Of a stretch of 64,000 nucleotides of DNA, positions 3,877-62,979 are shown piece by piece; the first letter of the stretch is position 1, and every line of letters begins with the position of its first letter. The stretch comes from Pseudomonadota bacterium (GTDB lineage Bacteria > Verrucomicrobiota > Verrucomicrobiia > Limisphaerales > SXTU01), in assembly GCA_009924135.1 (NCBI GenBank), contig RFSE01000002.1, positions 26,005-90,004 of the forward strand, in the 5' to 3' direction. The notes beneath the pieces were generated by a model. The model was given only the letters and a program-made list of their open reading frames with translations, ran no database searches and was not told the origin of the DNA. The position numbers were made by a program, and so were the translations under genes.

Positions 3877-4026
3877 GTGAGCGTTCAGGTTACGCTCCTA
3901 CTCTGACTGCTAGTGCGGCGGACCAGTAAAATCAACGTAAATTCAACGTTGAAAACGTGAAATGATTGGGGCCGGCGGATGCACGGGATGAATGAAGGCC
4001 GCCGTGGGCGGCTCGTCAGCGACAGT

Positions 4027-4092
4027 ATTCAGTGTTCAGTCATCGGTTCGATAACGACTGATGACTGATGACTGATGACTGAACACTGATTG
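4027..4092. repeat. Heptanucleotide repeat hairpin (GACTGAT family) downstream of ffh
   Basis: GACTGAT is repeated at 4056-4076 and continues as GACTGAA and CACTGAT to 4090. The segment 4027-4047 (attcagtgttcagtcatcgg) is the reverse complement of the right end of this array, so the whole element folds into an approximately 20-bp imperfect stem. It lies 13 bp beyond the ffh stop codon on the transcribed side and could double as a transcription end. The repeat shares the GTGTTCA word with the element at 36507. Confidence 0.85.
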
Positions 4093-4104: not shown

Positions 4105-5439
4105 TCACTTCATCCCCGGCATCCCGCCCATCTTGCCCATCATCTTCTGGAACTTGGACATCTTCTTCATCATCTGCTGCATCTGGGCGAACTGCTGGAG
4201 CAGCGTGTTGACCTCGGTGACAGTCACGCCGCTGCCCTTGGCGATGCGCTGACGACGTTTCGCGTTGAGCAGGTTCACGTTGCGGCGCTCCTGGGGAGTC
4301 ATGGCGCAGATGATGCCTTCCTTGCGGCGGAAGTCCTTCTCGGCCTTGCTGAAATCGGTGCCCTTCGCCATTTCGGCTCCGCCGGGCAGCATGCCCATGA
4401 TGTTCTCGAGCGGTCCCATTTTCTTCATTTCGCGGAGCTGCATGAGGAAGTCCTCCAGGTTGAACTGCCCCTTGCGCATCTTCTCTTCGAGCGCCATCGC
4501 GGAGTCCTGGTCAATCCGTTCGGCGGCTTTCTCGACGAGCGACACCACGTCACCCATGCCCAGGATGCGCTGGGCCATGCGCTCGGGATGGAACGGCTCG
4601 AAGTCATCCAGCTTCTCGCCCACACCCATGAACTTGATGGGCTTGCCGGTGACCTCCCGCAGGCTGAGGGCCGCGCCACCGCGCGCATCGCCGTCCAGCT
4701 TGGTGAGGATGGAGCCGGTGAGTTTGAGTGCCTGATCAAAATGCGTGGCGACGTTGACCGCCTCCTGGCCGGTGGCGGCGTCCAGTACGAGGAGAATTTC
4801 CTGCGGCTGGATGAGGTCACGGAGCCGGACGAGTTCCTGCACGAGCACCTCATCGATTTGGAGGCGGCCGGCGGTGTCGAAAATGATGACGTTGCGGCTC
4901 GTGAGCTTGGCGAGCTGCTGGGCGTCGCGCGCGATTTTCAACACGTCCGTCTCGCCGCGTTTCAGGAAGACCGGGACTTCGAGCTGTTTGCCCAGCGTCT
5001 CGAGCTGATCCATGGCGGCGGGCCGGTAAACGTCGCACGCCACCAGCAAGGGCTGGCGGCCCTGCTTTTTGAGCCAACTGGCGAGCTTGCCGGAGCTGGT
5101 GGTTTTGCCGGCACCGTGCAAACCGACCATCATGATGCACGTCGGACTGGCGGACAGATTGAGGGCGGAATTCTGCGAGCCGAGCAATGCGACCAGCTCG
5201 TCGCTGATGAGTTTGATGATCTGCTGGCCGGGATGGATGCTCTGGATGACCTGCTGGCCAAGGGCCTTTTCCTTCACGCGCTCGATGAAGTCGCGCGCGA
5301 CCTTGAAGTTTACGTCGGCGTCAAGCAGCGCCAGCCGCACGTCGCGAAGGGAGTCGCTGACGTTGGACTCGGAAATCTTGCCGAGGCCGCGGAGGTTGCG
5401 GAAGACGTTCTGGAGTTTGCCGGACAGCGAATCAAACAT
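4105..5439 (-). CDS. ffh: Signal recognition particle GTPase Ffh
   Basis: The SRP54 GTPase binds 4.5S RNA and signal peptides during co-translational membrane targeting. From the ATG at 5439 (MFDSLSGKLQNVFRNLRG) the protein is 444 aa, the normal Ffh length; the 520-aa frame in the ORF track adds 76 upstream residues that do not resemble any Ffh. Visible parts are the helical N domain, the G1 loop GLHGAGKTTSSGKLA, DVYRPAAMDQL, the G3 region DTAGR and the G4 motif TKLDGDARGG. A methionine-rich M domain follows, ending MMKKMSKFQKMMGKMGGMPGMK. It stands alone on the minus strand. The upstream 470 bp hold a pseudogene fragment on the opposite strand. Confidence 0.97.
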   Translation of the reverse strand: MFDSLSGKLQNVFRNLRGLGKISESNVSDSLRDVRLALLDADVNFKVARDFIERVKEKALGQQVIQSIHPGQQIIKLISDELVALLGSQNSALNLSASPTCIMMVGLHGAGKTTSSGKLASWLKKQGRQPLLVACDVYRPAAMDQLETLGKQLEVPVFLKRGETDVLKIARDAQQLAKLTSRNVIIFDTAGRLQIDEVLVQELVRLRDLIQPQEILLVLDAATGQEAVNVATHFDQALKLTGSILTKLDGDARGGAALSLREVTGKPIKFMGVGEKLDDFEPFHPERMAQRILGMGDVVSLVEKAAERIDQDSAMALEEKMRKGQFNLEDFLMQLREMKKMGPLENIMGMLPGGAEMAKGTDFSKAEKDFRRKEGIICAMTPQERRNVNLLNAKRRQRIAKGSGVTVTEVNTLLQQFAQMQQMMKKMSKFQKMMGKMGGMPGMK

Positions 5440-5477
5440 GGCGTGGATTCTGGTAAGCGGCGGGAAAACTGCCAGCC

Positions 5478-5822
5478 CTTTCGCGCGGGCGGCAGGTTTT
5501 GGTTTGCGGGACCGGTGGATTTTGCATCCTTCCGGCCATGCATGTGCTGCCGATCTTTTCCGGCGTCTTCCACATCTTCTCCGGTGGTCATTTGTTGCTG
5601 GCCGGGGCTGCCCGCCTGAAATCGACAAGGTGCTGACGCAGCGCGGGCTCAAGGCCCCCAATGTCATCCTGCTGCCCGACCGGCCGCCAAGCCCCGGCGA
5701 GTCGCAGGCCGAAGTATAATCTCCGCTCTACCACCACCGCTCCTTCGGCGGAAAACAAGACAAGGAAGAGCCGCTCCTCCTGCTGGCCAATGCCCGCCGT
5801 GTCCAAGCTGCACGGGACCCCC
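5478..5822 (+). pseudogene. Decayed copy of the 5' end of the MBL/cNMP fusion gene
   Basis: This stretch aligns over about 345 bp with 9103-9443: about 60 bp of upstream sequence plus the first roughly 95 codons of the gene at 9163. Its ATG at 5538 gives MHVLPIFSGVFHIFSGGH against MHVLPIFPGVFYISTGGH in the intact gene. Two extra bases near 5604 (gccggggctgcccgcc versus gccggctgtccgcc) break the frame, and a TAA follows the equivalent of GESQ. Homology ends after the CACGGGACC/GCGCGGGACC region. The remaining 5823-5913 has only a short open tail (YVINGACYFKHDLNFERPGD) that I do not recognise. The region is also the only space for an ffh promoter. Confidence 0.85.
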
Positions 5823-5913
5823 TTGAGCGGCGAACTACGTGATCAACGGAGCCTGCTACTTCAAGCACGACCTGAACTTCGAGCGCCCTGGTGACGCCGT
5901 CGATTAACTGCGT

Positions 5914-6864
5914 TCAGGCCGGGACCGTATTGCCACGTGTGGAGAGGGCGGCGAAGGATTTGAGCTTCTGGCGGAACGAGGCAACGACTTCCTCGATGAG
6001 CGGGTTGCCAAACCGCCGGGCCATGGTGATGGCGTAAAATCGCTCGGCCAGCCCGGGCACACGGATGAGCGTGCGGAGCTGGGGCGATTGCAGTTCCCGC
6101 TCGACGACGATGCTGGGCACCAGGGCCAGTCCGTGACCGGATAGTGCCAGCAGACGCAGCAGCGCCATGTCGTCCACCTCGGCCCGGATGTCGGGCTCGA
6201 GCCGCGCCCCGGCCAGCAACTGGTCGAAATCCGCGCGCACATGACTCTGGCGGGTGGGCAGCAACAACGGCACGCCCCGGAGCCAGGCCGGGAATTTGCT
6301 GCGGCCCGGGCGGACTTTCGTGCTGCCCGCCAGAAAGACCGGGGCCTCGCCGAGCAGATGGTTGTGAATCGTGTGTTCCTGGTCGGCTCGCAGCGGGATG
6401 TTGGAGAGCACCAGATCGAGCTTGTGCTCGTGCAACAGGCGCACCATTTCGGCCAGCCCGCCCGCCAGCACCGTCACCCGCGTGTCGCCGCGTTCCAGCA
6501 GCGGCTGGATGAAATCAAACTGGAGGTTCTTGGACAGCGGCCCGATGGCGCCGATGCGCAACTGCTTTTTCTCCTTCCCCGTCTGCCGGAGCCGGTCCAG
6601 CAATTCACGGTCGGTGGCGAAGATGGACTCGGCATGCTCGAAGGCGATGCGCCCGGCTTCGGTCAGGTGCAGTTGCCGGCTGCGTCGCTCGAAGAGCGGC
6701 TGGCCCAGCCAGCCTTCCAGTTCGCGCACCTGCTCGCTCAGGGTGGACTGGGAGACCCGCAGCACCTCTGCCGCCTGCGTCATGCTGCGATGCCGGGCGA
6801 TGACCCAGAAATGGCGCAGGTGGTGGTAGTTCAGCCAGGTCTGGCTGGGCTCTTCGTTTTTCAC
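5914..6864 (-). CDS. LysR-family transcriptional regulator, NhaR-like
   Basis: The sequence LNYHHLRHFWVIARHRSMTQAAEVLRVSQSTLSEQVRELE is the winged-helix DNA-binding domain typical of the NhaR branch of LysR regulators. A periplasmic-binding-protein-like effector domain follows (RIGAIGPLSKNLQFDFIQPLL and onward). The ORF track starts at a TTG at 6921, only 23 bp from the divergent carbonic anhydrase ATG. I prefer the GTG at 6864, which leaves about 80 bp for two promoters and places a perfect LysR-type palindrome just upstream. The N-terminus is therefore uncertain by 19 residues. The divergent position next to carbonic anhydrase, sbtA and sbtB suggests it controls inorganic-carbon uptake, possibly in response to Na+, pH or CO2 (inference). 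Confidence 0.85.
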   Translation of the reverse strand: MKNEEPSQTWLNYHHLRHFWVIARHRSMTQAAEVLRVSQSTLSEQVRELEGWLGQPLFERRSRQLHLTEAGRIAFEHAESIFATDRELLDRLRQTGKEKKQLRIGAIGPLSKNLQFDFIQPLLERGDTRVTVLAGGLAEMVRLLHEHKLDLVLSNIPLRADQEHTIHNHLLGEAPVFLAGSTKVRPGRSKFPAWLRGVPLLLPTRQSHVRADFDQLLAGARLEPDIRAEVDDMALLRLLALSGHGLALVPSIVVERELQSPQLRTLIRVPGLAERFYAITMARRFGNPLIEEVVASFRQKLKSFAALSTRGNTVPA

Positions 6865-6867
6865 ATG

Positions 6868-6884
6868 GTTCGGAATAACCGAAC
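6868..6884. promoter_or_regulatory. Putative LysR operator palindrome
   Basis: GTTCGGAATAACCGAAC is a perfect 6+6 inverted repeat with a 5-bp spacer. It contains the T-N11-A arrangement expected for LysR-type regulators. It lies between the lysR-like gene and the carbonic anhydrase gene, 3 bp upstream of the proposed GTG start of the regulator and 60 bp before the ATG of the divergent gene. This position suits both autorepression and activation of the carbon-uptake operon. Confidence 0.6.
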
Positions 6885-6944
6885 GATAGCATCGCAACAA
6901 TCTATTTTTCCATTCCTCCAACCAGACCTAGGTTGCGGCCGCAT

Positions 6945-7676
6945 ATGAAACAACTCATGCAAGGATTGACACCTCCTACCGGGGCGGCCCTGTTGCTCGC
7001 CCTCTCACTCCTGACCGCCGGCTGCCAGACCGGCGGGCACCCATCCGCCGTCGCACCGCCCACGCGAACCGAACAACAGGCAAGCACGCCCACCCAGGTG
7101 CGACAACGCCTGGCGGACGGCAACGCGCGCTACGTCGCAGGCACGCCGTTGGCGCGGGACTGGGCCACGGCCCGCACCGCCACGGCGGGCGGACAATTCC
7201 CCTACGCCGCCGTCTTAAGCTGCCTGGACTCCCGGACCTCGGCCGAAATCATTTTCGACCAGGGACACGGTGAGATTTTCAACGCCCGCGTGGCTGGCAA
7301 CATCCTGAATGACGATATCCTCGGCAGCTTGGAATTCGCCTGCCAGGTCGCGGGCGCGAAGCTCATTGCCGTGATTGGGCATACGGAATGCGGGGCGGTC
7401 AAGGGTGCGTGCAGCGGGGTACAGCTCGGGCATCTTACGGGCCTGCTGGAGCGCATCAAACCGGCTGTGACCGAGGTCAGCGGCGGGCAGTCGGTGGAGC
7501 CAGCCACCCAGCCACAGCTCGTCAACGCCGTGGCCGAGGCCAACGTCCGGCTCGTTTTGCGGCAGATTCGCGAGCGCAGCCTCGGGCTGCGCGCCCTGCT
7601 GGACGCCGGCAAAATCGGCCTCGTGGGCGGCCTTTATGAGCTGCACTCCGGCCGGGTCAACTTCCTGAACGAATAA
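6945..7676 (+). CDS. Lipoprotein beta-carbonic anhydrase
   Basis: The ATG at 6945 starts a lipoprotein signal peptide with lipobox LLTAGC (lipidated Cys27), so the mature enzyme should be membrane-anchored outside the cytoplasm. The beta-class zinc site is complete: Cys93 and the Asp95-Arg97 dyad in SCLDSR, then His146 and Cys149 in GHTECG. Length is 243 aa. It would interconvert CO2 and bicarbonate on the outer side of the inner membrane. It is followed 8 bp later by sbtA, then sbtB, so it probably feeds bicarbonate to the transporter. The ORF-track start at 6933 is an upstream TTG and is not needed. Confidence 0.92.
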   Translation: MKQLMQGLTPPTGAALLLALSLLTAGCQTGGHPSAVAPPTRTEQQASTPTQVRQRLADGNARYVAGTPLARDWATARTATAGGQFPYAAVLSCLDSRTSAEIIFDQGHGEIFNARVAGNILNDDILGSLEFACQVAGAKLIAVIGHTECGAVKGACSGVQLGHLTGLLERIKPAVTEVSGGQSVEPATQPQLVNAVAEANVRLVLRQIRERSLGLRALLDAGKIGLVGGLYELHSGRVNFLNE

Positions 7677-7684
7677 GCACCACC

Positions 7685-8665
7685 ATGGACCTCCTGCACG
7701 CCCTCAGTTCGAACTTGCTCTCGCCCGCCGTCCTGTTCTTCGCGCTCGGCCTGCTCGCCGCGCTGCTGAAGACCGACCTCAAATTCCCCGAAAGCCTGTA
7801 CGCCAGTCTGACGATTTACCTGCTCGTCGCCATCGGGTTCAAGGGCGGCGTCGCCATCAACGAAGCCGGCATTGGCAAGGTCTGGCTCCCGGCGCTGGCC
7901 GCCATGACGCTCGGTGCCCTCATCCCCCTCTGGACTTACCCGCTGCTGCGCTTCGGCGGGAAGTTCACGCCCGTGGACGCCGCCGCCATCGCAGCCCACT
8001 ACGGGTCCGTAAGTGCCGTGACGTTCATTGCAGCTACGAACTATCTGAAAGCCGTCAACCAGCCCTACGAAAGCTACGCCACGGCCTTTCTCGCCGTGAT
8101 GGAATCCCCCGCCATCCTGGTAGGCGTGGTGCTGGGCAAACTGGCCACCAGCCAGAGTGGACCGCCGGACCGGGCCGCCTTGAAGGCCGCGCTGCACGAA
8201 GCCATTTTCGGACGCAGCATCTTCCTGCTCGTCGGCGCGCTGGTCGTCGGAGCCTTGTGCGGCAAGCCGGGCATGGACAAGGTGGAGTCCTTCTTCGTCA
8301 CGCCCTTTCAAGGTGTGCTTGCGCTGTTTCTGCTGGAAATGGGGCTGGTCGCCGGACGGCGACTGGACGACCTGCGGAAGGTCGGGCCTTTCCTGCTCGG
8401 TTTTGGCGTGGTGATGCCGCTGCTACACGGTGCCCTGGGCGTGTATCTGGGCCGGTGCGCAGGCTTGGAACTCGGCGGCGCAACCTTGCTCGGCGTGCTC
8501 GCCGCGAGCGCCAGTTACATTGCCGCCCCGGCGGCCATCCGCATGTCGCTGCCGGAGGCGAACCCGACCTACTACCTCACCGCCTCGCTGGCCATCACCT
8601 TCCCGTTCAACATTACGCTCGGAATTCCGGTTTACTTCGCCCTGGCCCGCTGGCTTTACTCATGA
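7685..8665 (+). CDS. sbtA: Sodium-dependent bicarbonate transporter SbtA
   Basis: The 326-aa membrane protein has about ten hydrophobic segments and begins MDLLHALSSNLLSPAVLFFALG, then LLKTDLKFPESLYASLTIYLLVAIGFKGG. This is the conserved SbtA (DUF897) N-terminus. The family imports HCO3- with Na+ and is inhibited by the PII-like protein SbtB. The next gene overlaps its stop codon by 4 bp (ATGA) and encodes exactly such a protein. Together with the upstream secreted carbonic anhydrase it forms a three-gene inorganic-carbon uptake operon. Confidence 0.94.
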   Translation: MDLLHALSSNLLSPAVLFFALGLLAALLKTDLKFPESLYASLTIYLLVAIGFKGGVAINEAGIGKVWLPALAAMTLGALIPLWTYPLLRFGGKFTPVDAAAIAAHYGSVSAVTFIAATNYLKAVNQPYESYATAFLAVMESPAILVGVVLGKLATSQSGPPDRAALKAALHEAIFGRSIFLLVGALVVGALCGKPGMDKVESFFVTPFQGVLALFLLEMGLVAGRRLDDLRKVGPFLLGFGVVMPLLHGALGVYLGRCAGLELGGATLLGVLAASASYIAAPAAIRMSLPEANPTYYLTASLAITFPFNITLGIPVYFALARWLYS

Positions 8666-8970
8666 ACATGACCACGCACCCGATGAAACTAGTTACCATT
8701 GTCTGCGAATCCCACGCCCGCGAGGCCGTCACGAAACTCCTCCGGGAGACCGGTGCTCACGGGTGGACACTCTTCCCCGTGGAAGGTGACGGCGCGCATG
8801 GCAAACGTCCGGCGGACATCCCGGAGTTTGCCAATGTACAGATCGAAGTCATCGTGCCGCCGGAGGTGGCCAACGCCCTGATCGAACGGTTGGGCTGCGA
8901 ATTTTTCCCGCGCTATGCGATGATTGCCTTCGAGTCCGACGTACGCGTGCTGCGCCCGGGGAAGTTTTAA
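8662..8970 (+). CDS. sbtB: PII-like regulator SbtB
   Basis: The real gene is the last 103 codons of a longer ORF-track frame (8257..8970). It starts at the ATG that overlaps the sbtA stop. The 102-aa product contains KLVTIVCESHAREAVTKLLRE, a glycine-rich T-loop region (VEGDGAHGKRPADIPEF) and IEVIVPPEVANALIERLGCEFFPRYAMIAFESDVRVLRPGKF, a ferredoxin-like PII fold. SbtB binds adenine nucleotides including cAMP and plugs SbtA. The C-terminal redox R-loop with two cysteines seen in some cyanobacterial SbtB is absent here. ATGs at 8668 and 8683 are alternative starts. Confidence 0.88.
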   Translation: MNMTTHPMKLVTIVCESHAREAVTKLLRETGAHGWTLFPVEGDGAHGKRPADIPEFANVQIEVIVPPEVANALIERLGCEFFPRYAMIAFESDVRVLRPGKF

Positions 8971-8984
8971 CCCAAAGCAGGCGA

Positions 8985-9015
8985 GGGTGGCACGTGCCCG
9001 TGGCCTGAGCCACCC
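8985..9015 (+). terminator. Hairpin after the carbonic anhydrase-sbtAB operon
   Basis: GGGTGGC at 8985-8991 pairs with GCCACCC at 9009-9015, 15 bp after the sbtB stop. No clear T-tract follows, so it is a weak intrinsic-terminator candidate or an RNA-stabilising structure. The rest of 8971-9162 holds the leader shared with the pseudogene copy at 5478. Confidence 0.4.
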
Positions 9016-9162
9016 ACCGGCTTCACCGGTTCTCCCGCAGAGTTCGGGTTTTGCAAACCTTGTCCACAGTGGTAGCAACACCTGCAAGCAACTGGGCTGC
9101 GCACTTTTGCGCGGCGGCTGGTTTTGGTTTGCGGGTCCGGCGAATTTTTGCATCCTTACCTC

Positions 9163-11298
9163 ATGCATGTGCTGCCGATCTTTCCCGGCGTCTTCTACAT
9201 TTCCACCGGCGGCCACTCATTGCTGGCCGGCTGTCCGCCTGAAATCGTCAAGGTGCTGATGCAGCGCGGGCTCAAGGCCCCCAATGTCATCCTGTTGCCG
9301 GACCGGCCGGTGAGCCACGGCGAGTCACAGGTCGCCGTGGAGTTTCCGCTCTACCATCACCTCTTCTTCGGCGGCAAACAGCGCAAGGAGGAGCCGCTCC
9401 TGCTCCTGGGCAACGCCCGCCGCGTCCAGGCTGCGCGGGACCTCCTAGAATTGACGCTGTTCGGTCCCGACGCGAAACAGATGGAAGCGTGGGGCATGAC
9501 CGCGCAACAGGCGGATGAGCTGTCGAAGGAAACGCGCTCGTTCCAGCTCAAGGACAAGCAAGGCAAGGTCCTGCCCTTGGACGCCATGGTCACGACGCAG
9601 GTGCTGGGCGAGGAGGCGGTGAACCTGGGCTGGTGCATCGTCCGGCGCGTCGAGCCGAACCGGTTTGAAATCGCCGCTGAAGGCCACACCAAGATCATTG
9701 ATCTCACGCTGGATCAAGAACAGTCGCCGCCCTATCCGGTCAACACCGACCTGACGCCCGGCACGCTGATCAAGCTCGGCTTGGAAGTGCTCGGCGGCTC
9801 GACCGGCTTCAGCGCCACCCAGGCGTCGTCGGGCTTCGCGCTGTGTCACAACGGCAATTACATGCTGGTGGATGCCATCCCGTACATGAACGCCCACCTC
9901 CGGGCCCGGGGCATCGCCCGCAACCAGATCCACTCGATCTTCCTGAGCCACATCCACGACGACCACTGCAACCTGCTTTCCCTGCTCCAGTACAGCCGCC
10001 GGATCAACCTGCTGACGACCCCGCTCATCTACCGCATGATGCTGCGGAAGCTCGCCCTGTCGATGGATCACCCGGAGGAAAGCCTTCAAGAATACTTCAA
10101 CTTCATTCCCCTGGAGCCGGGTCGTGAGGAAAACTTCTTCGGTCTCCGGATCACCCCCTTCTATTCCAGCCACAGCATTCCGACCATTGGTGCGTATTTC
10201 GAGACGACGCACTCCGGGAAGGACTGCCGCATCATCTTCACCAGTGACACCCAGGCCCTGGCCGACCTCAAACGCCTCGAACGCAGCGGGGTCATCACGC
10301 AGGAACGTTACCAGCAGATCGCTGAACTCTACCGCCAGCCTGCCCAGCTCCTCCTGGCGGACGGCGGCGAAGGCTTGATCCACGGAAACCCGAATGACGC
10401 CAGCAATTCGCCGGCCGACCGCATCGTCTTCCTGCATCTGGACAGCCTCTCGGAGAAATTCCAGGCCCACTTCGGCACGGCAACCAGCGGCAAACGGTTC
10501 AACCTCCTGCACGGGGAAACGGATTACAACCTCACCCACACCATTGAATTCCTGCTCGAATACTTCCCGAGCATGCCGCCGATCTGGATTTCCAACCTGC
10601 TGGCCAACCAGCGCGTAATGAAGTACAACGCGGGGGACATCATCATCCGTGAAGGCATCCGGTCCGAGGGCTACGTTTACATGATTCTCACCGGCTACGC
10701 GCAGGTGATCCACCACGACGGCGAGCGTCGTCACCTGCTGGCCCAGATGGAAGCCGGCGAACTGATCGGTGAAATGGCCGTCATCATGGGCCACGGTCAA
10801 CGAAATGCCTCCGTGGTGGCGCTCAGCCCCATGACGGTCACGGCCTTCGCAGAAAGCTCCTTCCGCGAATTCATCCGCCACCAGCGGTGTGAAGCCCAGC
10901 TCCGGGCGCTCTGGCAAAAGCGCGAGCTACTGCAATCCTTCGCCTGCGTCCGCACGCTCCAGCAGCCGGTGCTGCGCGAGCTGGCGCGACTGGCCTCCTT
11001 GGAGAGCCTGCCCTCCGCCAACGGGCCGCGAAAATTCTCCACCTTCTGCCCGCCCGGCAGCCTCATGCTGCCGCTGGGCGAGGGGTTGGAAATCCAACGC
11101 GGCGGCGAGATCGAGATCGTCGAGCCCAACACCACGCCGGTGCATTGCGCGGCGGACATGGTGCTGCTGACGGAGGCGGAACTCCAATTCCTGCTCCTCG
11201 GTCCCGAGGCGGCAACGGAACTGCGGCAACGCATTCCCGCCTTCCGGTTCTTCTGGGAAGAAACGCTCGGACTGCCGCTGCCGCTGCCAGGCGCGTAG
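9163..11298 (+). CDS. Metallo-beta-lactamase fold protein with cyclic nucleotide-binding domain
   Basis: The ATG at 9163 gives 711 aa (MHVLPIFPGVFYISTGGH...); the track start 13 codons upstream is not needed. Residues 1-200 form an N-terminal region I cannot assign. Residues about 210-470 are a metallo-beta-lactamase fold with the zinc motif HIHDDH (263-268) and later SSHSIPTIGAYFE and FTSDTQ. Residues about 480-600 are a cNMP-binding/Crp-like sensor domain (YNAGDIIIREGIRSEGYVY, then GELIGEMAVIMG). The final 100 residues resemble a degenerate second sensor region. A hydrolase gated by cAMP or cGMP is a reasonable inference; the substrate is unknown. Part of its 5' end has been duplicated and has decayed at 5478. 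Confidence 0.85.
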   Translation: MHVLPIFPGVFYISTGGHSLLAGCPPEIVKVLMQRGLKAPNVILLPDRPVSHGESQVAVEFPLYHHLFFGGKQRKEEPLLLLGNARRVQAARDLLELTLFGPDAKQMEAWGMTAQQADELSKETRSFQLKDKQGKVLPLDAMVTTQVLGEEAVNLGWCIVRRVEPNRFEIAAEGHTKIIDLTLDQEQSPPYPVNTDLTPGTLIKLGLEVLGGSTGFSATQASSGFALCHNGNYMLVDAIPYMNAHLRARGIARNQIHSIFLSHIHDDHCNLLSLLQYSRRINLLTTPLIYRMMLRKLALSMDHPEESLQEYFNFIPLEPGREENFFGLRITPFYSSHSIPTIGAYFETTHSGKDCRIIFTSDTQALADLKRLERSGVITQERYQQIAELYRQPAQLLLADGGEGLIHGNPNDASNSPADRIVFLHLDSLSEKFQAHFGTATSGKRFNLLHGETDYNLTHTIEFLLEYFPSMPPIWISNLLANQRVMKYNAGDIIIREGIRSEGYVYMILTGYAQVIHHDGERRHLLAQMEAGELIGEMAVIMGHGQRNASVVALSPMTVTAFAESSFREFIRHQRCEAQLRALWQKRELLQSFACVRTLQQPVLRELARLASLESLPSANGPRKFSTFCPPGSLMLPLGEGLEIQRGGEIEIVEPNTTPVHCAADMVLLTEAELQFLLLGPEAATELRQRIPAFRFFWEETLGLPLPLPGA

Positions 11299-11386
11299 CG
11301 TCCGGTCCAATTGCCGCCCAGCAATTGGCAAGTCCCGGCGAGCCCGGCCCGGCGAACGTGAATGACGTTGGCGCAGAGGCCGGAAT

Positions 11387-12400
11387 ATGAATGCTACGCC
11401 TAACTTGACCGCCCCAACCTTGATGGACCACCGGGTGGATACGATTGCGCCTCCGATCCGGCTCCGCCGGTTGCTGGTACCGTTGGATTTTTCCGCCGCT
11501 TCGCTCCGGGCGTACCAATACGCGGTGGCGCTGGCCGGGTGTTTTGGCGGGGAACTGACCCTCCTCCACGTAGTGCCCCCGCCCGTGCTGCCCGAATGGG
11601 GATATGCCCACCTCGCGCACCGGGATGAGCTGCTCAAATCCGCCGCGGTTCGCAAGCTGGAGGATTTCGTGCGCACCCAGGGTCCAGCCGGTGAATGCGT
11701 CGGCGAGTTGCTGGTCCGCGCTGGTGACCCGCATTTGCAAATCCCCGAGGCAGCCCGGCAACTGCACGCCGACATTTTGGTCATCGCGACGCATGGAGAT
11801 TCCCCTTTGCCCCATTGCCTGCTCGGCAACACGGCGGAGGAGGTTGTCCGCCGGGCTCCCTGTCCCGTCTGGGTGGTGCCGGGCGTGACCAGCGAGGAAG
11901 CCGAACTTCAGCCCGCATTGTTTCCCCTCCGCCGCATCCTGGTGGGGACAGATTTCTCGGCCGAGTCCCGCAAGGCGCTGCGTTATGGCATTGCGCTGGC
12001 GCGGGAGTTTGATGCCACGCTGCATGTTGTCCATGTAGTGCCCACCGTGCTGCCGGCGGATGTCAGCCACCTCGCCGTGATCCTTCAGGAAGCCACCATG
12101 AAGGAAACAGCCCACCGTGAGCTGGCCCGGATGTATGCGGAGGAACTGCCCGCCGATGTGCCGGTGGTGATGACTGCGCTCTGTGGCAACCCGTTCCTCG
12201 AAATCGACATGGAAGCCCTGCGGGTCCGGGCGGGCTTGGTGGTTGTCTCCACGCACGGCCACACGGGGTTGCGCTACCTGCTGCTGGGCTGTACCGCTCA
12301 ACGGGTTGTACAGCACACTTCCGTCCCCGTGCTCGTGGTCCGCGATCAGGAACCGGAGTTCATCCCGTTGGGCAAGGTTGAAAAAGCGCTCCCGCAGTAA
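11387..12400 (+). CDS. Tandem universal stress protein (two UspA domains)
   Basis: The 337-aa protein carries two Usp domains, at residues about 25-165 and 180-325. Each opens with a beta strand ending in DFS (LLVPLDFSAASLRAYQYAV; ILVGTDFSAESRKALRYGI). Each closes with a glycine-rich segment: THGDSPLPHCLLGNTAEEVV in the first, THGHTGLRYLLLGCTAQRVV in the second. The second, with its G-2x-G-9x-G-(S/T)-like pattern, is the better candidate to bind ATP. It starts 88 bp after the MBL/cNMP gene on the same strand and may be co-transcribed with it. It converges on the methyltransferase gene 35 bp away. Confidence 0.9.
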   Translation: MNATPNLTAPTLMDHRVDTIAPPIRLRRLLVPLDFSAASLRAYQYAVALAGCFGGELTLLHVVPPPVLPEWGYAHLAHRDELLKSAAVRKLEDFVRTQGPAGECVGELLVRAGDPHLQIPEAARQLHADILVIATHGDSPLPHCLLGNTAEEVVRRAPCPVWVVPGVTSEEAELQPALFPLRRILVGTDFSAESRKALRYGIALAREFDATLHVVHVVPTVLPADVSHLAVILQEATMKETAHRELARMYAEELPADVPVVMTALCGNPFLEIDMEALRVRAGLVVVSTHGHTGLRYLLLGCTAQRVVQHTSVPVLVVRDQEPEFIPLGKVEKALPQ

Positions 12401-12435
12401 CCGGCAGTCACCCCTGAAAACAGCGGTTCATCGCC

Positions 12436-13749
12436 CTATTTCGCCGTGGGCTTCTCCGCCACCAGTTCAAAGCCCAGCAGGCTGGCCAACCGTTGCTCCC
12501 GCACGCCGTAACATACCGCGAGGTTCCTCACCCGGGCGGCCAGTTCCCCAAGATCCCCGCGCACCCGGCGCTTCACGGCGGCGATCATCAGGTTCTTCGC
12601 CGTGTGCTCGTTCGAAATGAATTCGAACACCTTTGTGTCGTAACCGGCCCATTCCAGCAAGGCGGCGCGCAGGGCGTCTGTCACGAACTCCGCCTCGCGC
12701 TCCAGCAGGATGCCATGGCGCAACGCAGCAGCCAGCGCGGGCGGCGGTACAAGTTGCGGCCGGAGTTCCCGGTGACAGCAGGGCGAGACCAGCAGCAGGC
12801 GCGCACCGGCTCCGATGCCTTGGGCCAGGGCGTCATCCGTCGCGGTGTTGCACGCGTGCAGGGCGATGAGCGCATCGGCCGCCTGGAGTTCAGTGCTGGC
12901 AATGGTGCCGGCCTGAAAGTGCAGATGCTCGAAATGGCACGCCCTTGCCACGCGGTTGCACTCCTCGACCAGTTCCGGGCGGGCCTCAATGCCTACCACC
13001 CGGCTGCCGGTGAAGAACAAATGTTCGAGCAACTGGCTCACCGCAAAGGTGAGGTAACCCTTGCCACAGCCCATGTCCACGATGGCCAGCGGGCGCTGGA
13101 TCAGCACAGTTTCGGACCGTTCCAACTCCGTCTGGCGACGCGCCCGGCGTTTCAGCCGCGCCTCTTCATCCAAGTCATCGCCGCCTTCCTCGGCCGCCAG
13201 CGGCACCATGGCGCCCTGGCCAAAGGCTTCCACCAGCAGCGGTCGCAGGACTTCAACGAACTGATTGATCTGGCGGAACTTGTCCGTCATCGCCTCCCGC
13301 ACCCGGCCGTCCGGCAGGGTTACGCCCAGTTCACGCAACCAGGGCTCGGAAGGCAGGATGCTGCGCGGCTTGGCGCGATCGTGTTCGAGGGGCGGCGCTT
13401 CTCCGTGGACGGGTTTGTGCAGCGAGATGCGGGCGGAACCGTCCTCGCGAAGGGTCAGTTCGGCTGTCCGCTCGGTGGTGAACAGGTTGGCACACAGAAA
13501 GGCGTCACTGAGCAGGTTCGCGATTTCCGTCAGGGTTTCCTCGTGTGTCAGGTTCTTGAAGATGTCCTTCGTTGCGTGCCGGTAGGTGAAGGAGACCCGC
13601 ATCCCGGCCTTCAACTGCACGGGCCGGAGGAACACGTTCTTCAAATCCGTCGAGGCATCGCGTGGCCGGCTGAGGGTGAGCTTGACGAAGATCCCACGCG
13701 AAAGCGCATCACGGAACAGGTCGAAGAGTTTGTCTTGGGCGGCAATCAT
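12436..13749 (-). CDS. Class I SAM-dependent methyltransferase (Methyltransf_32-like)
   Basis: The 437-aa protein has an N-terminal domain of about 210 residues with a DALSRGIFVKLTLSRPR start. A Rossmann methyltransferase domain follows, with motif I VDMGCGKGYLTFAVSQLL, ARPELVEECNR after strand 2, ALIALHACNTATDDAL and the distinctive LVSPCCHRELRPQL. The PCCH motif is typical of the Methyltransf_32 group, which includes proteins thought to act on RNA. The substrate is not deducible. It is divergent from eboE with about 160 bp between them. Confidence 0.82.
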   Translation of the reverse strand: MIAAQDKLFDLFRDALSRGIFVKLTLSRPRDASTDLKNVFLRPVQLKAGMRVSFTYRHATKDIFKNLTHEETLTEIANLLSDAFLCANLFTTERTAELTLREDGSARISLHKPVHGEAPPLEHDRAKPRSILPSEPWLRELGVTLPDGRVREAMTDKFRQINQFVEVLRPLLVEAFGQGAMVPLAAEEGGDDLDEEARLKRRARRQTELERSETVLIQRPLAIVDMGCGKGYLTFAVSQLLEHLFFTGSRVVGIEARPELVEECNRVARACHFEHLHFQAGTIASTELQAADALIALHACNTATDDALAQGIGAGARLLLVSPCCHRELRPQLVPPPALAAALRHGILLEREAEFVTDALRAALLEWAGYDTKVFEFISNEHTAKNLMIAAVKRRVRGDLGELAARVRNLAVCYGVREQRLASLLGFELVAEKPTAK

Positions 13750-13911
13750 GGTGGGGAGGCGGATTAAGTTTTAGAGCAAGATCAAGAGCAGGATGCGGAA
13801 GCCGTTCTTCTGGCCGGAATCCCACACCAAAGGCTACCCCTAATTTTAATCTCCGCCAAATTCCGGCGAAAGGCTGGCAGCTTGCACACCGAGTTGTTAC
13901 ACCTAGCCGCG

Positions 13912-62889: not shown

Positions 62890-62979
62890 TGGCGGAAGGG
62901 GAGGGATTCGAACCCCCGGTAGGGTTGCCCCTACTCCTGATTTCGAGTCAGGTGCCTTTAACCACTCAGCCACCCTTCC
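62890..62979 (-). tRNA. tRNA-Ser (anticodon CGA)
   Basis: The minus strand reads GGAAGGGTGGCTGAGTGG ... CCTGACTCGAAATCAGG ... a long variable arm ... GGTTCGAATCCC ... CCCTTCCGCCA. Acceptor, D, anticodon (loop CTCGAAA) and T arms pair, the class II variable arm is present, and CCA is encoded. The ORF-track frame 62889..63947 reads through it antisense. Confidence 0.95.

Follow-up and report, generated by a model that had tools for sequence, protein, structure and literature searches.

A metallo-beta-lactamase domain and a cyclic-nucleotide sensor in one chain

What does a bacterial protein do that joins the HIHDDH metal site of a metallo-beta-lactamase (MBL) to a Crp-like sensor? This question is raised by the open reading frame at 9163–11298 on the + strand of the 64,000-nucleotide stretch of DNA analyzed here (the window), whose source assembly comprises 6.7 Mb in 490 contigs. 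Running from an ATG at 9163 to a stop codon ending at 11298, the frame is a genuine gene and encodes 711 amino acids. Pfam models placed cNMP_binding at residues 486–573 (E 1.3e-15), Lactamase_B_2 at residues 234–368 (E 1.1e-6) and Lactamase_B at residues 229–398 (E 6.4e-6), each above its curated cut-off. The first-pass annotation had read an HIHDDH MBL enzyme and a Crp-like sensor in one protein, and this reading holds: both domains pass their Pfam cut-offs and both are conserved in homologues. The plan of the family is longer than these two domains, comprising a pseudo-MBL domain, an MBL domain and two cyclic-nucleotide-binding domains (CNB-A and CNB-B), the second of which is decayed in the window protein. 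An AlphaFold model of the whole chain, built on an alignment of 24 homologues, reached a pLDDT of 88.7 and a pTM of 0.90, and its Foldseek matches comprise MBLs of the YhfI/Apyc1 type, PKA regulatory subunits with tandem CNB domains, and ELAC2 (668 columns).

Full-length homologues sharing 32–88% identity occur in Verrucomicrobiota and Spirochaetota, a spread over two phyla that places the combination of domains far beyond chance. Congeners are 77–88% identical and other Verrucomicrobiota ~60–65%, while many Spirochaetota, Leptospiraceae included, stand at ~32–39%. The invariance counts given below refer to 24 aligned homologues from these two phyla; the Verrucomicrobiota relatives are mostly MAGs, one of them from Limisphaerales. 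Within its own phylum the gene is patchy, being found only in the window genome and in G121 among 289 sampled genomes when a match had to extend beyond the widespread MBL and CNB domains. The G121 copy (L010/L068) belongs to a divergent member of the phylum, is 26–28% identical and has its C-terminal part split. Two further copies are interrupted, one in a Methylococcaceae MAG by a single stop after residue ~190 (L091) and one in G345 that is broken into three frames (L067/L084); these are either pseudogenes or assembly errors.

The N-terminal domain resembles an inactive MBL fold

The first 200 residues (9163–9762, + strand) had been described as matching no recognized family. At the level of sequence that description stands: a Pfam scan of residues 1–200 gave no family match, and a profile of the domain searched against the sequences of solved structures returned nothing. 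The predicted structure does not bear it out. Modeled alone, residues 1–202 gave a pLDDT of 85.7 and a pTM of 0.80, and their order of strands (E) and helices (H), namely E2–7, E10–15, E18–22, H28–34, E42–44, H60–69, E79–83, H85–100 and then strands, recurs in the MBL domain (E205–211, E224–229, E232–236, H242–248, E256–260, H272–277, E281–285, H287–301 and then strands). When the isolated domain was compared with the PDB by Foldseek, the matches shown were all of MBL fold (best E 2.9e-5, TMq up to 0.52) and included 1zkp, Apyc1, YhfI, ELAC1, PqqB and RNase Z.

The HxHxDH motif is absent from this domain in all 24 homologues, and for this reason we term it a pseudo-domain rather than an MBL enzyme. 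Its invariant residues lie elsewhere: GCPPE (23–27), PD (46–47), Q56 and EFPLY (60–64). From the model, the region thus looks like a dead MBL-fold domain placed ahead of a live one. We had also considered that a comparison of the two profiles might prove an internal duplication and dropped this idea: hhalign aligned the N-domain and MBL-domain profiles in the same register as that found by eye, with E 0.035–0.1, a score equaled by 8 of 100 shuffles and so not significant, and the MBL assignment of the N-domain therefore rests on predicted structure. As a hypothesis, for which the alignment is too uncertain, E60 might correspond to E74 of Apyc1, which acts in trans.

The catalytic and sensor domains point to a regulated phosphodiesterase

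The catalytic MBL domain spans residues 205–462 (9775–10548, + strand; PF12706, PF00753) and carries its HIHDDH metal-binding motif at residues 263–268 (9949–9966, + strand). This motif is invariant, as are all eight candidate metal ligands (H263, H265, D267, H268, H337, D362, H407 and H425; 24/24), and it reads SHIHDDH in the window protein and THIHDDH in some homologues. 'Atypical class-II' phosphodiesterases (PDEs) of the Rv1339 type are defined by a [T/S]HxHxDH signature together with PF12706 (PMC9293780), and the window protein has both, the Pfam model scoring 28.9 bits against a cut-off of 27. Searched against the sequences of solved structures, the profile of the MBL domain ranked Apyc1 structures first to third (E 6e-6 to 2e-4), the remaining matches of the six being 1zkp, ELAC1 and YhfI. 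Half of the members (12/24) also match the Pfam family Anti-Pycsar_Apyc1, and every member matches both NF041851, a model for a cyclic-nucleotide-degrading PDE, and RNase Z models. The window protein reaches 22.5 bits against the NF041851 equivalog cut-off of 400 bits, and it accordingly lies outside that equivalog family, as a distant relative only. Taken together, fold, motif and nearest relatives support membership in the class II PDEs.

The sensor domain CNB-A occupies residues 486–573 (10618–10881, + strand) and scores 57.5 bits against PF00027, for which the cut-off is 27.5; it matches structures of CRP, PKG and PKA regulatory subunits. Alignment with CRP placed its phosphate-binding cassette at residues 536–549, GEMAVIMGHGQRNA (10768–10809, + strand), with E537 opposite Glu72 and R547 opposite Arg82, which in CRP hold the ribose and the phosphate of cAMP. 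All 24 homologues have R547; at position 537, Glu occurs in 22 of them and Asp in the remaining 2, so that the Glu/Arg pair required of a cyclic-nucleotide cassette is present in CNB-A, and the loss of nucleotide-contacting Arg and Glu residues that the first-pass annotation had named as refuting evidence was not seen. R547 is followed by Asn throughout Verrucomicrobiota and by Ser or Thr in Spirochaetota; binders of cAMP usually have Ser, Thr or Ala there. The C-terminal ~120 residues (~590–711; 10930–11295, + strand) form a second CNB domain, CNB-B, which aligned with the CNB-A profile at E 3.6e-10 (hhalign). Most Spirochaetota homologues keep a CNB-B cassette with Glu and Arg and no Verrucomicrobiota member does: CNB-B has decayed, with loss of its ligand site, in the window lineage.

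Could the chain be an MBL hydrolase regulated by cyclic nucleotides that acts on something other than a cyclic mononucleotide, such as an RNA end, a nucleotide diphosphate, a lactone or a cyclic dinucleotide? MBL folds are promiscuous in evolution, Foldseek matches include PhnP-like and RNase Z structures, and RNase Z profiles are the NCBIfam models that score best on the MBL domain: taking the best member for each, they reached 2e-13 and 7.6e-12 on this domain as against 2.2e-9 for NF041851; on the window protein, the RNase Z and NF041851 models all fall far below their curated cut-offs. Set against this, cyclic-nucleotide PDEs are the nearest solved sequences, and RNase Z itself was rejected as the identity of the protein. 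The PxKxRN loop is not present, its place being taken by SATQAS in the window protein and, in some spirochaetes, by PTKPCS; the flexible arm, or exosite, between the motif III His and the motif IV Asp is missing, since H337 and D362 are 25 residues apart where the equivalent spacing in B. subtilis RNase Z is about 70; the RNase_Z model aligned over its first half only (13–153 of 302); and three other loci of the genome are better matches to the RNase Z model. We consider a different substrate unlikely on this evidence, if still to be reckoned with. We find it more improbable still that CNB-A senses a ligand other than cAMP or cGMP, or is merely a structural or dimerization domain. Folds of the CNB/Crp type often bind other ligands, the Asn after R547 departs from the usual residue, and CNB-B has already decayed in this lineage; against these points weigh the cassette, whose Glu/Asp and Arg are kept in 24/24, and the clear margin of CNB-A over the Pfam cut-off with its matches to known nucleotide-binding regulators.

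A model for feed-forward removal of a cyclic nucleotide

We propose that the protein is probably a cytosolic phosphodiesterase of class II (MBL fold) that both acts on cyclic nucleotides and is gated by them; most likely, rising levels of cAMP or a similar messenger would lead this enzyme to break the messenger down. In this proposal, CNB-A would bind cAMP or another cNMP through its Glu/Arg cassette, the resulting conformational change would be relayed to the adjoining MBL domain, and the di-metal HIHDDH site would then hydrolyze cAMP or cNMP, a feed-forward loop that clears the messenger, like that of Dictyostelium GbpA and GbpB. The pseudo-MBL domain would most likely stand in for the second protomer of the homodimeric class II PDEs (Apyc1, YhfI) and help to shape the active site, much like the dead N-terminal domain of long RNase Z (ELAC2). 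The full-length superpositions with ELAC2 (Foldseek) have a high rmsd of 10–21 Angstrom, which leaves this placing tentative. CNB-B may be a former second sensor or coupling domain of the family. The substrate, the ligand, the direction of regulation and the role of the pseudo-domain are what we infer here. As to a source of messenger, eight matches to class III cyclases were found in the genome, and at least three of these bear the Lys/Asp pair of adenylate cyclases; against a cAMP reading, the G121 genome gave no class III cyclase match. The three predicted adenylate cyclases L105, L106 and L107 have what appears, on reading the sequence, to be response-regulator receiver sequence upstream.

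The nearest precedent by domain order is the pair of Dictyostelium enzymes GbpA and GbpB, in which an MBL domain is followed by two CNB domains and cyclic nucleotides activate cyclic-nucleotide hydrolysis (PMC11988041). With this precedent and the kept cassette, the earlier suggestion that a cyclic nucleotide directly controls the MBL hydrolase finds support as an inference. The likeness lies in the order of an MBL and two CNB domains in one chain; the Gbp enzymes are cytosolic and cyclic-nucleotide-activated, properties in which the window protein is likened to them by analogy. Whereas they are eukaryotic and characterized, the window protein has a decayed CNB-B and a pseudo-MBL N-domain before its MBL–CNB–CNB series. 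The Apyc1/YhfI/Rv1339-type PDEs are its nearest MBL relatives by profile and by Foldseek, and share PF12706 and [T/S]HxHxDH; unlike the window chain, which would hold two MBL-fold units (one dead) plus CNB domains, they are single-domain proteins of ~250 aa, sensorless, and homodimers where solved. Long-form RNase Z (ELAC2, Trz1) likewise sets a dead N-terminal MBL before an active one in a single chain, and bacteria and archaea have short RNase Z only (PMC11649783); the long form differs in being a eukaryotic tRNA nuclease with an exosite and a PxKxRN loop and with no CNB domain. In Bdellovibrio Bd1971 a cAMP sensor also controls a nucleotide phosphodiesterase within one bacterial protein, although that protein has an EAL catalytic domain, c-di-GMP as its substrate and no MBL domain (PMC6717892).

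A bolder version of the proposal, which we advance tentatively as somewhat doubtful, is a bacterial 'long-form' class II PDE: a single-chain pseudo-dimer in which the dead MBL completes the live active site, gated through tandem CNB domains by cAMP in a feed-forward manner, and perhaps a prokaryotic counterpart of GbpA/GbpB. As far as we found in the literature, the MBL plus CNB architecture is known experimentally only from the slime-mould enzymes, and no known bacterial cAMP phosphodiesterase has a built-in sensor through which its own messenger switches it on. If true, spirochaetes (Leptospiraceae included) and Verrucomicrobiota would have a cAMP phosphodiesterase with the GbpA/GbpB domain plan, and bacteria would offer a case of the dead-plus-live MBL pair described for eukaryotic long RNase Z; what had been an N-domain of unknown family becomes concretely testable.

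A carbonic anhydrase and bicarbonate transporter cassette was inserted beside the gene

The gene lies directly downstream of an SbtB-like gene, and the first-pass annotation had paired the two as candidate cAMP-responsive proteins encoded side by side. The adjacency is real. The SbtB-like gene stands at the right-hand end of a cassette at 5827–9096 that is absent from the sister-species locus and contains a LysR-family regulator (5914–6921, − strand; PF03466, PF00126), a beta-carbonic anhydrase (6948–7676, + strand; PF00484, and NF011765 above cut-off), the bicarbonate transporter SbtA (7685–8665, + strand; PF05982, 395 bits) and the SbtB-like PII protein (8668–8970, + strand; PF00543, 68 bits). 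The sister species, the closest one found (G292, L061), has ffh (4105–5439, − strand in the window) and the 9163-type gene as divergent neighbors 97 bp apart, and we take this layout, as found in L061, to be ancestral. The tandem universal stress protein gene downstream of the gene (11387–12400, + strand; PF00582) is kept in several congeners (L061, L063, L064), and in L061 the same methyltransferase and UxaE-like genes, both tentatively named, follow it. Window positions 4105–5817 match L061 6131–7842 and positions 9120–13750 match L061 7522–12130; the two matching blocks overlap by 321 bp in L061, and therefore ~3.3 kb was inserted in the window with duplication at the flanks. The cassette thus came to lie beside the gene through a lineage-specific insertion.

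The left border of the cassette is marked by a dead stub of ~360 bp (5469–5826, + strand) that adjoins ffh and carries, in collinear blocks, a copy of the gene's first ~97 codons and of the sequence that precedes them. It is 85% identical to 9229–9449 over 221 nt and contains indels and an in-frame TAA; an identity of only 85% to the right copy means that it is not an assembly duplicate. The first-pass annotation had mentioned neither this truncated 5′-end copy (~5469–5826) nor the decayed second CNB at residues ~590–711.

A functional link between the neighbors did not survive the comparison. That the gene and SbtAB form one inorganic-carbon regulon answering a single cAMP signal is highly improbable: the genes are adjacent on the same strand in the window genome and Synechocystis SbtB binds cAMP (PMC10117731), and yet the cassette is a lineage-specific insertion with a duplicated boundary that lies at another locus in G292 (L123, 86% nucleotide identity), and at other related loci sbtAB was not found next to the gene as far as the flanks reach. 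The survey of co-occurrence with sbtAB that had been suggested showed no association among 58 relatives, SbtA being present in 3 of the 8 that carry the gene and in 11 of the 50 that do not (Fisher p = 0.38). Nor does the local SbtB-like protein have the C-terminal CGPEGC redox loop (R-loop cysteines) described for cyanobacterial SbtB (PMC10117731). We therefore dropped the SbtB–cAMP partnership, on the insertion seen in the sister-species comparison and the absent co-occurrence. No conserved partner gene was found in the neighborhoods of Spirochaetota and other Verrucomicrobiota homologues.

Several smaller features complete the picture of the window. Positions 8900–9400 contain no promoter-like site and one terminator-like site, no more than shuffles give. 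Elsewhere among the relatives, SbtA–SbtB either has neither the cassette's LysR nor its carbonic anhydrase within the reach of the flanks, or is accompanied by a LysR (L125) or a carbonic anhydrase (L127) that is more distantly related. Downstream of ffh, at 4023–4088, lie short repeats (ACTGATGACTGATGACTGAACACTG plus an inverted arm) that may form a terminator hairpin; the genome contains the 25-mer a single time. The sole Rfam match within the window is a tRNA gene at 62893–62979 on the − strand.
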